In this document: positions 21,059 to 26,017 of the stretch, one piece after another | Position numbering within the stretch: the first letter of the stretch is position 1 | Layout of the letters: each line of letters begins with the position of its first letter | Origin: an uncultured Pelagibacteraceae bacterium | GTDB lineage: Bacteria > Pseudomonadota > Alphaproteobacteria > Pelagibacterales > Pelagibacteraceae | DNA length: 37,623 bases | Direction: 5' to 3' | Assembly (NCBI GenBank): GCA_902611145.1 | Contig: CACLYO010000010.1 | Span: 1 to 37,623 of the forward strand | Position numbers and translations under genes: made by a program | Notes under the pieces: model-generated | The model's database searches: none | The model's input: only the letters and a program-made list of their open reading frames with translations | What the model was told of the DNA's origin: nothing

Positions 21059-21122
21059 AAATGAGCACTATTTATTAAAATACATTGCATAAATTGAACA
21101 AAAAAAATTAATTTTATTATTG

Positions 21123-21173
21123 ATGGCTGATATAGATCGTGCTTTAATTATGAAAATTCAAAAGAGATTTTGA
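21123..21173 (+). other. Possible 16-codon leader ORF upstream of aapJ
   Basis: In the 157-bp gap between tRNA-Arg and aapJ, an ATG at 21123 opens a frame for MADIDRALIMKIQKRF and stops at 21171-21173. No ribosome binding site precedes it, and short ORFs arise by chance, so it is not called as a gene. Its last six codons fall inside the hairpin at 21155-21176, the sort of overlap seen in translation-coupled leader control. Confidence 0.2.
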
Positions 21174-21190
21174 ATTATTTGTTAACAAAT
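21155..21190 (+). promoter_or_regulatory. Paired dyads in the aapJ upstream region: GNRA-type hairpin plus 14-bp palindrome
   Basis: Bases 21155-21176 form a perfect 9-bp inverted repeat (AATTCAAAA / TTTTGAATT) around a GAGA tetraloop, which fits the GNRA class of stable RNA loops. Directly after it, 21177-21190 is a perfect palindrome ATTTGTTAACAAAT. The Shine-Dalgarno AGAGGGAAGA lies 15-20 bp downstream, just before the aapJ ATG. The first element could be an RNA structure and the second a protein-binding operator for nitrogen or amino-acid control. No known riboswitch class is recognised. Confidence 0.4.
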
Positions 21191-21215
21191 AAACTTAATA
21201 ACAAGAGGGAAGAAT

Positions 21216-22256
21216 ATGTTAAAAGTTATAAAAAGTTTGACTTCTTTTGTTGCTATGGTTGCAGTTCTGTTTGTTTTTACAACAGAAACTATGGCTGCTA
21301 AGAAATCAAAAACACTTAAAAACACTCAGAAAAAAGGTTTCGTAAGATGTGGTGTTTCTCAAGGTCTTCCAGGATTTTCAAATGCTGATGCATCTGGAAA
21401 TTGGACTGGTGTTGACGTTGACGTATGTAGAGCGGTTGCTGCTGCAGTACTAGGTGATGCGAACAAAGTTAAGTTCACTCCACTAAGTGCTAAAGAAAGA
21501 TTTACTGCTTTAACTTCTGGTGAGATTGATATCTTATCAAGAAACACAACTTGGACACTTTCTAGAGATGCTGACATTGGTCTTACTTTCGTTGGAGTAA
21601 ACTTCTACGATGGTCAAGGTTTCATGGTTAGAAAATCTTCTGGAATAACTTCTACGAGCCAATTTAAAAGTGGAATTTCAGCATGTACAAACATCGGTAC
21701 AACAACTGAGCTAAACATGAGAGACTTCTTTAATTCAAAAGGAATTTCTTATGAGCCAGTAGCTTTTGAAAAAGCTGACGAAGTTGTTGCTGCTTATGAT
21801 GCTGGTAGATGTGATACTTACACTACTGATAAATCAGGTCTAGCTGCTCAAAGAACAAAATTGAGCAATCCAGATGATCATATAGTATTACCTGAAACGA
21901 TTTCAAAAGAACCTTTAGGTCCTGTTGTTCGTCAAGGTGATTCAGTATGGGAAGATATCGTAAGATGGTCTTTGAACGTAATGATCGAAGCTGAAGAATA
22001 CGGTATTACTTCTGGAAATGCAGATTCTATGAAAACTTCTGAAAACCCAGCTATTAAAAGACTTGTTGGTGCAGAAGGTGAATTAGGAGCAGCATTTGGT
22101 CTAGATAATGACTGGAGTTTAAGAATTATCAAACAAGTTGGTAACTATGGTGAAAGTTATAAGAGAAATATAGCTGATACTGGTATTTTACCTGACAGAG
22201 GTCCAAACCAATTATGGACTAAAGGCGGAATACTTTACGTACCACCTGCAAGATAA
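21216..22256 (+). CDS. aapJ: General L-amino-acid ABC transporter, periplasmic binding protein
   Basis: 346 residues. Signal peptide about residues 1-27 (hydrophobic core FVAMVAVLFVFTTETMAA). The mature part follows the AapJ subfamily: GFVRCGVSQGLPGFSNADASG, WTGVDVDVCRAVAAAVLGD, VKFTPLSAKERFTALTSGEIDIL, RNTTWTLSRD, YDAGRCDTYTTDKSGLAAQR, and C-terminal DRGPNQLWTKGGILYVPPAR. It captures a broad set of L-amino acids in the periplasm for AapQMP. Start chosen at the ATG after AGAGGGAAGA. Its base composition is visibly less A+T-rich than its neighbours, with more GCT, GGT, AAC and TTC codons, which suggests very high expression, as is known for SAR11 binding proteins. Confidence 0.96.
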   Translation: MLKVIKSLTSFVAMVAVLFVFTTETMAAKKSKTLKNTQKKGFVRCGVSQGLPGFSNADASGNWTGVDVDVCRAVAAAVLGDANKVKFTPLSAKERFTALTSGEIDILSRNTTWTLSRDADIGLTFVGVNFYDGQGFMVRKSSGITSTSQFKSGISACTNIGTTTELNMRDFFNSKGISYEPVAFEKADEVVAAYDAGRCDTYTTDKSGLAAQRTKLSNPDDHIVLPETISKEPLGPVVRQGDSVWEDIVRWSLNVMIEAEEYGITSGNADSMKTSENPAIKRLVGAEGELGAAFGLDNDWSLRIIKQVGNYGESYKRNIADTGILPDRGPNQLWTKGGILYVPPAR

Positions 22257-22277
22257 TTTTTATCTTAATAAACTTTA

Positions 22278-22309
22278 AAAAGGGCTAGATTTATCTAGCC
22301 CTTTTTTTT
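22278..22309 (+). terminator. Intrinsic terminator between aapJ and aapQ
   Basis: An 11-bp stem, AAAAGGGCTAG with CTAGCCCTTTT, closes a six-base loop (ATTTAT) and is followed by more T residues. It starts about 20 bp after the aapJ stop and ends 14 bp before aapQ. It is likely to stop most transcripts after aapJ and allow partial read-through, giving more binding protein than permease. Confidence 0.85.
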
Positions 22310-25645: not shown

Positions 25646-26017
25646 ATGGAAGAAAATTTTAATAAACACTTGGGTAACAAGTTAAAACTAAGAAGATTAG
25701 CTCTAGGATTAACTCAAACGAAGGTAGCTAAAGCAATTAACGTAACATTTCAACAAATTCAGAAGTATGAGAAGGGAACTAACGGAGTAAGCTCAATTAG
25801 ACTACTCCAACTATCTAACTATTTAAAAGTTCCAATAAATTATTTCTTTGAAGACTTTTCTGAATACACAATCAATGCAGAAAGACTTAAAGAATCTCAT
25901 ATGACTGTGAATTATAACTTTTTAGTAAAAGTTTATAATGAACTAACTGCAGATCAAAAAATAAAGTTTGGAAAAAATTTACAAGCTACGCAGATTGGAA
26001 TTTCTAAAACAGGATAA
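25646..26017 (+). CDS. XRE-family helix-turn-helix transcriptional regulator
   Basis: 123 residues from the ATG at 25646, preceded by a good ribosome site (AAGAGGGG). A frame-open TTG at 25565 would add 27 basic residues not expected in the family. Residues about 9-65 form a Cro/C1-type helix-turn-helix: GNKLKLRRLALGLTQTKVAKAINVTFQQIQKYEKGTNGV, split here as two halves of the domain. TFQQ-Q-KYEKGTN is shared with alphaproteobacterial regulators of the PraR type. The C-terminal part is short and without a recognised ligand domain, though NYFFEDFSEY is typical of the group. It stands alone between aapP and two convergent tRNA genes; its targets cannot be read from the sequence. Confidence 0.85.
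   Translation: MEENFNKHLGNKLKLRRLALGLTQTKVAKAINVTFQQIQKYEKGTNGVSSIRLLQLSNYLKVPINYFFEDFSEYTINAERLKESHMTVNYNFLVKVYNELTADQKIKFGKNLQATQIGISKTG

Follow-up and report, generated by a model that had tools for sequence, protein, structure and literature searches.

The aapJ (yhdW) mRNA of Pelagibacter-type SAR11 bacteria would begin at the base of a short perfect hairpin that is directly adjoined by a second, palindromic hairpin, and among the relatives compared the first of these is kept as a structure while its letters change. We give a probability of about one in two to the reading that this leader serves as a protector of the 5′ end of the mRNA and as a spacer for the ribosome site, a function suggested by its structure and position. 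The preliminary description of this DNA had proposed a layered leader ahead of aapJ, and a conserved, structured and transcribed leader there is supported; the start mapped in a relative falls at the hairpin base.

Binding proteins of the AapJ/YhdW type rank with the most abundant proteins that a dominant ocean bacterium makes. The window, that is, the whole stretch of 37,623 nucleotides that was analysed (contig CACLYO010000010.1, from an uncultured Pelagibacteraceae bacterium), is a SAR11 stretch of the Pelagibacter type. A reading of it gave ntrY, ntrX, trkA, trkH, aapJQMP and a gene for an XRE regulator, besides a tRNA, and domains were identified in the products of aapJ, ntrX and the XRE gene. 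The gene aapJ, for the periplasmic binding protein of an amino-acid ABC transporter, occupies positions 21216–22256 of the + strand and matches Pfam SBP_bac_3 (E 8.8e-16); in NCBIfam its product matched amino-acid-binding families, none above its cut-off. In the gap between aapJ and aapQ a terminator-like hairpin (22277–22306, + strand), formed by a 13-bp stem and then a T run, probably marks the 3′ terminus of a short mRNA of aapJ, and the XRE-type HTH gene, recognised by a match to the HTH_3 domain, lies 3′ of aapP at 25646–26017.

The leaders compared and the start of the mRNA

The leaders come from 230 loci at which AapJ was matched, and these yielded 224 leaders, 196 of them distinct over their last 90 nt. 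The exact core TTGTTAACAA of the palindrome is carried by 186 of the 196, and it was this core that selected the 186; the pattern TTTGTTAACAAA had been used to fetch the loci of twelve of the 224, which introduces a bias to the core, and without them it is found in 180 of 190 distinct leaders. The sampling is weighted to close relatives, and several genomes are present twice under different ids. By genus, the core-bearing leaders comprise 131 from g1, 32 from g8 and 23 from g9, the first figure including the unlabelled loci (67 of 180), whose AapJ is 93–100% identical and which were put in g1. Ten distinct leaders without the core, from the genera g5, g6 and g7 and the family f2, were set aside; the core is likewise absent in five leaders from outside the set of 224 (L174, L175, L185, L187, L188).

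On the + strand of the window, a −35 box TTGATG (21120–21125) is separated by a spacer of 17 nt from an extended −10 element, TGC followed by TTTAAT (21140–21148). The latter is recognised by its sequence and appears as TGCTTAAAT/TGCTTTACT in many aapJ leaders; the former is assigned by its spacing across leaders, and its counterpart in HTCC7211, equally placed with respect to a mapped +1, reads TTGAAG. Of 186 leaders examined, 178 have a TTGA or TTGC, which in 170 of these stands 33–36 nt 5′ of the base of the hairpin (165 of 172, among 180 examined, when the pattern-fetched loci are removed).

The start itself is placed by comparison with published data on a Red Sea community, whose transcription starts were mapped on Candidatus Pelagibacter HTCC7211 (PMC5069720), the start reads being those of the natural community and not of a culture of HTCC7211 itself. 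Table 2 of that paper gives yhdW at 1014159–1015259 on the minus strand, with 215 start-site reads. In G223, a genome that fits HTCC7211, the ATG of aapJ lies at 1015199, and from the Table 2 end at 1015259 there follows a 5′ UTR of 60 nt, whose +1 is the first base of ATATTCAAAATACGTTTTGAATTATTTGTTAACAAATAA and lies 5 nt beyond the end of the extended −10 of HTCC7211. The Table 2 coordinates were taken as start sites because glcB, used as a control, gives the same value both ways: by count its Table 2 start is 162 nt ahead of the ATG, and the text of the paper also states 162 nt for this leader. Nor is the stretch of 60 nt an alternative gene start, because it contains an in-frame TAA. When the window is aligned with yhdW of HTCC7211, in which ATATTCAAAATACG begins at the published start, the +1 of the window would fall at 21154 (+ strand); the hairpin and the palindrome would thus belong to the 5′ UTR of the aapJ mRNA, because the orthologous +1 falls at the hairpin base. 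The preliminary description had made its proposal depend on a start no further downstream than 21176, and the start mapped in the relative lies upstream of that position.

Conservation and covariation of the two hairpins

Hairpin 1 (21155–21176, + strand) has nine perfect base pairs, between the arms AATTCAAAA (21155–21163) and TTTTGAATT (21168–21176), and a GAGA loop of the GNRA type (21164–21167), just as first described from the letters. In all 186 distinct core-bearing leaders a stem of 7–14 bp with a loop of 3–6 nt stands directly 5′ of the palindrome, and without the pattern-fetched loci a stem of at least 7 bp is present in 180 of 180; of dinucleotide-shuffled upstream sequences, which were allowed loops of up to 12 where the real leaders have 3–6, 18% have a stem of at least 7 bp and 9% one of at least 8 bp. 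The arms are ATTCAAAA/TTTTGAAT in g1 and AAATTACA/TGTAATTT in g9, and in g8 they are TTTTGAATT/AATTCAAAA or TTTTGAAAC/GTTTCAAAA, with ACTGAAT/ATTCAGT in L233, such that arms are found swapped between genera; one pair forms the series U-A (L243), U.G (L226), C-G (L235). Loop 1 has no fixed length or sequence, and GNRA accounts for 48 of the 91 tetraloops, in five forms (46 of 86 in a recount). Hairpin 1 probably acts as RNA, because its letters change, its arms swap, its loop length varies and the U-A/U.G/C-G series is found, all with the structure kept. The stem finder selects paired stems, and hence the full pairing in the pair table arises by construction and the fair control is the shuffles; one pair table excludes L142, in which the finder chose a second stem although the ordinary hairpin exists there.

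The palindrome (21175–21192, + strand) is TTATTTGTTAACAAATAA, perfect over 18 bp, and overlaps the arm of hairpin 1 by 2 nt; as RNA it would form hairpin 2, with a UUAA loop. The 14-bp palindrome reported earlier (21177–21190) is indeed perfect, but it is a part of this longer one. A perfect dyad of 14–22 bp occurs in all of the 186 leaders, which had been chosen for the exact core. Two flanking pairs differ on both sides between genera while the core is constant and the centre self-complementary, and in this hairpin 2 is ambiguous, as symmetric changes in the flanks fit both an RNA stem and the DNA site of a dimer; its formation in the aapJ mRNA is predicted. Against a background of 88 genes with an upstream gap of at least 45 nt, drawn from the window and ten 20-kb stretches of G223, a palindrome of at least 12 bp in the last 50 nt was found in six genes, aapJ among them and ranked second. 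The longest in this set is a perfect A/T palindrome of 24 bp in G223, upstream of L290:11152, a gene whose product begins MVPYDKRSGKIWYNSELLDW. Other palindromes made only of A and T, for example TTTAATTTAAATTAAA and ATTTAATTAATTAAAT, are seen just ahead of the Shine-Dalgarno sequence in five leaders of g5 and f2 that lack TTGTTAACAA (L171, L172, L183, L186, L187).

Comparative folding, which the preliminary description had called for, found both conservation and compensatory change among relatives. On cross-genus MAFFT alignments (25 of the 32 g8 leaders in one run, a hand-picked 22 in another) RNAalifold recovered hairpin 2 alone, because MAFFT misaligned the short hairpin 1, and for that reason covariation was measured on an ungapped alignment of g1 and g8 leaders, with 29 of 30 equal-span rows (L084, of ambiguous register, being omitted). 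In it 99.5% of cells are paired vs 83.3% in shuffles, 59 cells are changed on both sides vs 18.6, and the covariation score is 0.42 vs 0.135, values that 0 of 500 shuffles reach in each case; when slid, the alignment scores at most 0.08. For hairpin 1 taken separately, five of nine pairs have a two-sided change and 99.2% of cells are paired. Two measures show no excess over shuffles, namely how many pairs change on both sides (7 of 14, with 132 of 500 shuffles reaching 7) and how many further pair types occur (11, reached by 102 of 500), and the covariation leans mainly on one split between genera, with few independent events.

The 186 leaders have mean minimum free energies of −7.4 kcal/mol (37 °C) and −14.5 kcal/mol (15 °C), with a mean z of −2.3; z is below −2 in 113 of them and not in the other 73. 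In the 37 °C minimum of the window's own leader, the first half of the palindrome pairs with downstream sequence and hairpin 2 is absent, and at 15 °C hairpins 1 and 2 both fold. The Shine-Dalgarno sequence GAGGG, identified in A-rich surroundings (21205–21209, + strand), is unpaired in the 37 °C fold, and at 15 °C its GAG lies within a 3-bp stem.

Similar 5′ ends on other SAR11 mRNAs

Of the 28 genes with start reads in Table 2 of PMC5069720, 22 were examined, and the 15 with a UTR of at least 15 nt were tested for palindromes; the six left out are five whose listed start is the A of the ATG itself, and atpD, with 163 nt, which has no palindrome above 6 bp. At a nominal shuffle p of at most 0.05, uncorrected, a palindrome was found in 8 of the 15 HTCC7211 mRNAs, among them all five of those for substrate-binding proteins (yhdW, tauA, potD, opuAC and dctP), a sixth binding-protein gene, PB7211_130, being outside the test with a UTR of 10 nt; the mapped UTRs of acpP, amt, hupA, groS, glcB, atpE and PB7211_885 remained below the threshold. 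In several of the other binding-protein mRNAs the palindrome stands at +1 or +2. Palindromes of at least 12 bp occur in 6 of 15 mapped UTRs vs 5 of 87 other genes (Fisher p 0.001), and the shuffle threshold is reached by 5 of 5 binding proteins vs 3 of 10 others (p 0.026), in a small set that was examined once the idea had arisen and with the mapped UTR scanned on one side of the background comparison and the last 50 nt on the other.

The leaders of proteorhodopsin share the layout of those of aapJ with different letters, namely a changing hairpin and then a palindrome. Of 18 distinct leaders, 14 have a hairpin of at least 6 bp (shuffles: 19%), three have one of 5 bp and in one none was found, and the palindrome is built around TAGTTTATATAAACTA, which becomes TAGTTTAAATTTAAACTA in three leaders. 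These leaders (L287:117-190, which is HTCC7211, and L386–L414) also present a nearly invariant AAAAACTAAC...GAGGGAGTTTTTT ahead of the ATG. In HTCC7211, moreover, AAAAACU pairs with AGUUUUU around the Shine-Dalgarno sequence, a predicted hairpin that may possibly mask the ribosome site of this proteorhodopsin mRNA.

In opuAC (tmoX), palindromes of 12–16 bp whose letters change are found in 17 of 23 distinct leaders (shuffles give 2.7% at 12 bp or more); they stand 36 nt ahead of the ATG (L328–L355) and vary in length, as in CTTAATATTAAG, TATTAATATTAATA and ATTAATATATTAAT. As further support tauA is mixed, with at least 14 bp in 12 of 30 distinct leaders and at most 8 bp in 14 of 30, and the counts for potD were dropped as evidence, since they include T/A runs beside the Shine-Dalgarno sequence, outside the palindrome. 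The monomer hairpins of tauA and opuAC, at 0 kcal/mol at 37 °C, are predicted not to form, and for these two genes an RNA hairpin is therefore not the obvious reading.

It is conceivable, although we hold this only tentatively and would not bet on it at even odds, that self-complementary 5′ ends constitute a general class in SAR11, a post-transcriptional device shared by the abundant messages of binding proteins and proteorhodopsin. Such a device, spelled differently in each gene, would consist in protection or in dyad recognition, in a lineage where transcription factors are few.

A proposed protective leader and its alternatives

If the leader is a protector, the aapJ mRNA would start at the base of hairpin 1 with hairpin 2 adjoining it, and a 5′ UTR of some 60 nt would have little single-stranded sequence besides the A-rich stretch where the ribosome binds. 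An end paired in this way could hinder the removal of the 5′ pyrophosphate and the 5′-end-dependent attack of RNase E, an enzyme whose family (RNase E/G) was found in 5 of the 5 SAR11 genomes searched. Together with the terminator-like hairpin 3′ of aapJ, the leader would yield a short, long-lived mRNA, encoding a binding protein of which an excess is needed, and it would be constitutive rather than ligand-sensing; the proteorhodopsin mRNA would carry the same design in other letters. The step from structure to mRNA stability is one we infer, and the ratio of RNA-Seq to start-site reads in Table 2, tried as a proxy for half-life, gave no signal and neither supports nor opposes protection: palindrome-bearing and other mRNAs are alike in it (Mann-Whitney p 0.46), with 8.3 for yhdW and 0.4–0.5 for tauA, potD and proteorhodopsin.

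Stabilising stem-loops at the 5′ terminus have reportedly been described for the ompA and papA mRNAs of Escherichia coli by Emory, Bouvet, Bricker and Belasco. The aapJ leader resembles them in having a hairpin at or near +1 (within a few nt of it, by the HTCC7211 start and the −35 spacing), a free ribosome site after it and a gene for the envelope or surface, and differs in the second, palindromic hairpin that abuts on the first, in its mostly A-U pairs and in that its stabilising effect is deduced. A likeness also exists with the leaders of glcB and gcvT, in whose glycine riboswitches the reads begin where the first helix itself begins or at most 15 nt upstream (PMC5069720), but the glycine riboswitch leader has 162 nt and a known aptamer, and that of aapJ has some 60 nt and no aptamer that is recognised. 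With the structured RNAs of SAR11 described earlier (Meyer 2009, PMC2704228) the leader shares that these are cis elements of intergenic regions brought out by comparison; the motifs named there are, however, not at yhdW/aapJ, the word “yhdW” is absent from the main text of that paper, and its search was aimed at long, relatively GC-rich intergenic regions. In the open-licence literature searched, supplements apart, no description of a yhdW/aapJ leader was found.

A pure protector would not require the letter-for-letter conservation of TTGTTAACAA nor a self-complementary loop. In the main rival the palindrome at 21175–21192 is a DNA operator where a dimeric regulator, bound just 3′ of +1, blocks transcription, while hairpin 1 may still be RNA. 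We consider this reading rather unlikely, although it accounts for a dyad that is perfect through its centre, for a core shared by 180 of 190 distinct leaders and for changes in the flanks that are symmetric, as the site of a homodimer would show. In G000 and G012 the core would serve as a leader at aapJ alone: the further exact copies, two in G000 (in open frames of 457–550 codons) and one in G012 (185 codons), sit inside open frames, and on these two of 41 genomes a GTTAAC regulon was rejected. As for the regulator, the XRE gene (HTH_3) made a promising candidate by synteny, lying at most 2 kb from aapP in each of the 8 stretches from core-bearing genomes that extend beyond aapP, and near aapP in 0 of 4 stretches of g5, g6, g7 and f2, but it was weakened by the orthologs that exist elsewhere in 7 of 8 g5–g7 genomes, whose eight leaders are all without the core (in 7 of 7 f2 genomes the ortholog has no match). 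The other candidate is NtrX, with the motif CAAN2-5TTG (PMC9223101): in g8 an NtrX-like CAAN5TTG occupies a single position in 28 leaders, spanning the junction of hairpin and palindrome, and an NtrX site may exist there, but the motif is present in a minority of leaders (74 of 186), and its placement, constant in g8 only, is scattered in g1 and g9. The aapJ palindrome is like the operators of XRE/Cro-type regulators or of NtrX in being an AT-rich perfect dyad near +1; it differs in that its regulator is hypothetical, and from the sequences neither XRE nor NtrX is well supported. Finally, proteorhodopsin and other mRNAs have different palindromes at like places, a pattern that one operator cannot explain.

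That the leader senses a small ligand, as the preliminary description had thought plausible, or a protein, and thereby controls the translation of aapJ, we hold to be improbable. SAR11 does use riboswitches (Meyer 2009, PMC2704228), an uncoupling of YhdW protein and transcript is credited to Smith et al. 2013 in PMC13198564, and the conserved UUAA loop could be a protein contact. Against this, the sequences and lengths of loop 1 are many and no other long unpaired block is conserved in a leader of about 60 nt; in the folds examined the ribosome site is not covered by any strong competing stem; and in Rfam 15 no class is reached at the gathering score, with chance-level matches below it, so that the earlier statement that no known class is recognised still holds. 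With neither a conserved unpaired aptamer core nor an Rfam class, a metabolite riboswitch is unlikely.

Another proposal, to which we give very little credence, is that the self-complementary 5′ ends pair two mRNAs with one another, with effects on decay or localisation. The palindromes do include their centres, also in tauA and opuAC, which lack a predicted monomer hairpin, and dimers are predicted at −8.4 kcal/mol for tauA and −9.2 for opuAC at 37 °C and at −17.0 for the g1 palindrome; however, the number of copies of an mRNA in each tiny cell is expected to be low.

A translated leader peptide with coupling or attenuation, likewise unlikely and in our estimate close to negligible, would need the 16-codon frame reported earlier, ATG GCT ... 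TTT TGA (21123–21173), which does exist in the letters and yet does not stand as a gene or feature, with an ATG inside the −35 box, a beginning 31 nt upstream of the inferred +1 that leaves the frame mostly upstream of it, and little conservation, the TGA of the hairpin closing a frame of at least 14 codons in 9 of 186 leaders (8 of 180 without the pattern-fetched loci), so that neither a transcribed, conserved short ORF nor translation coupling through it is found.

To return to the proposed protective leader, transcriptional regulators are comparatively scarce in streamlined oligotrophs (PMC13198564), and a shared structured leader would offer one explanation for the uncoupling of YhdW protein and transcript that is reported there. 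If a structured 5′ end is indeed shared by these messages, it would provide a compact and testable account of how high levels of transporters are reached in a streamlined cell.
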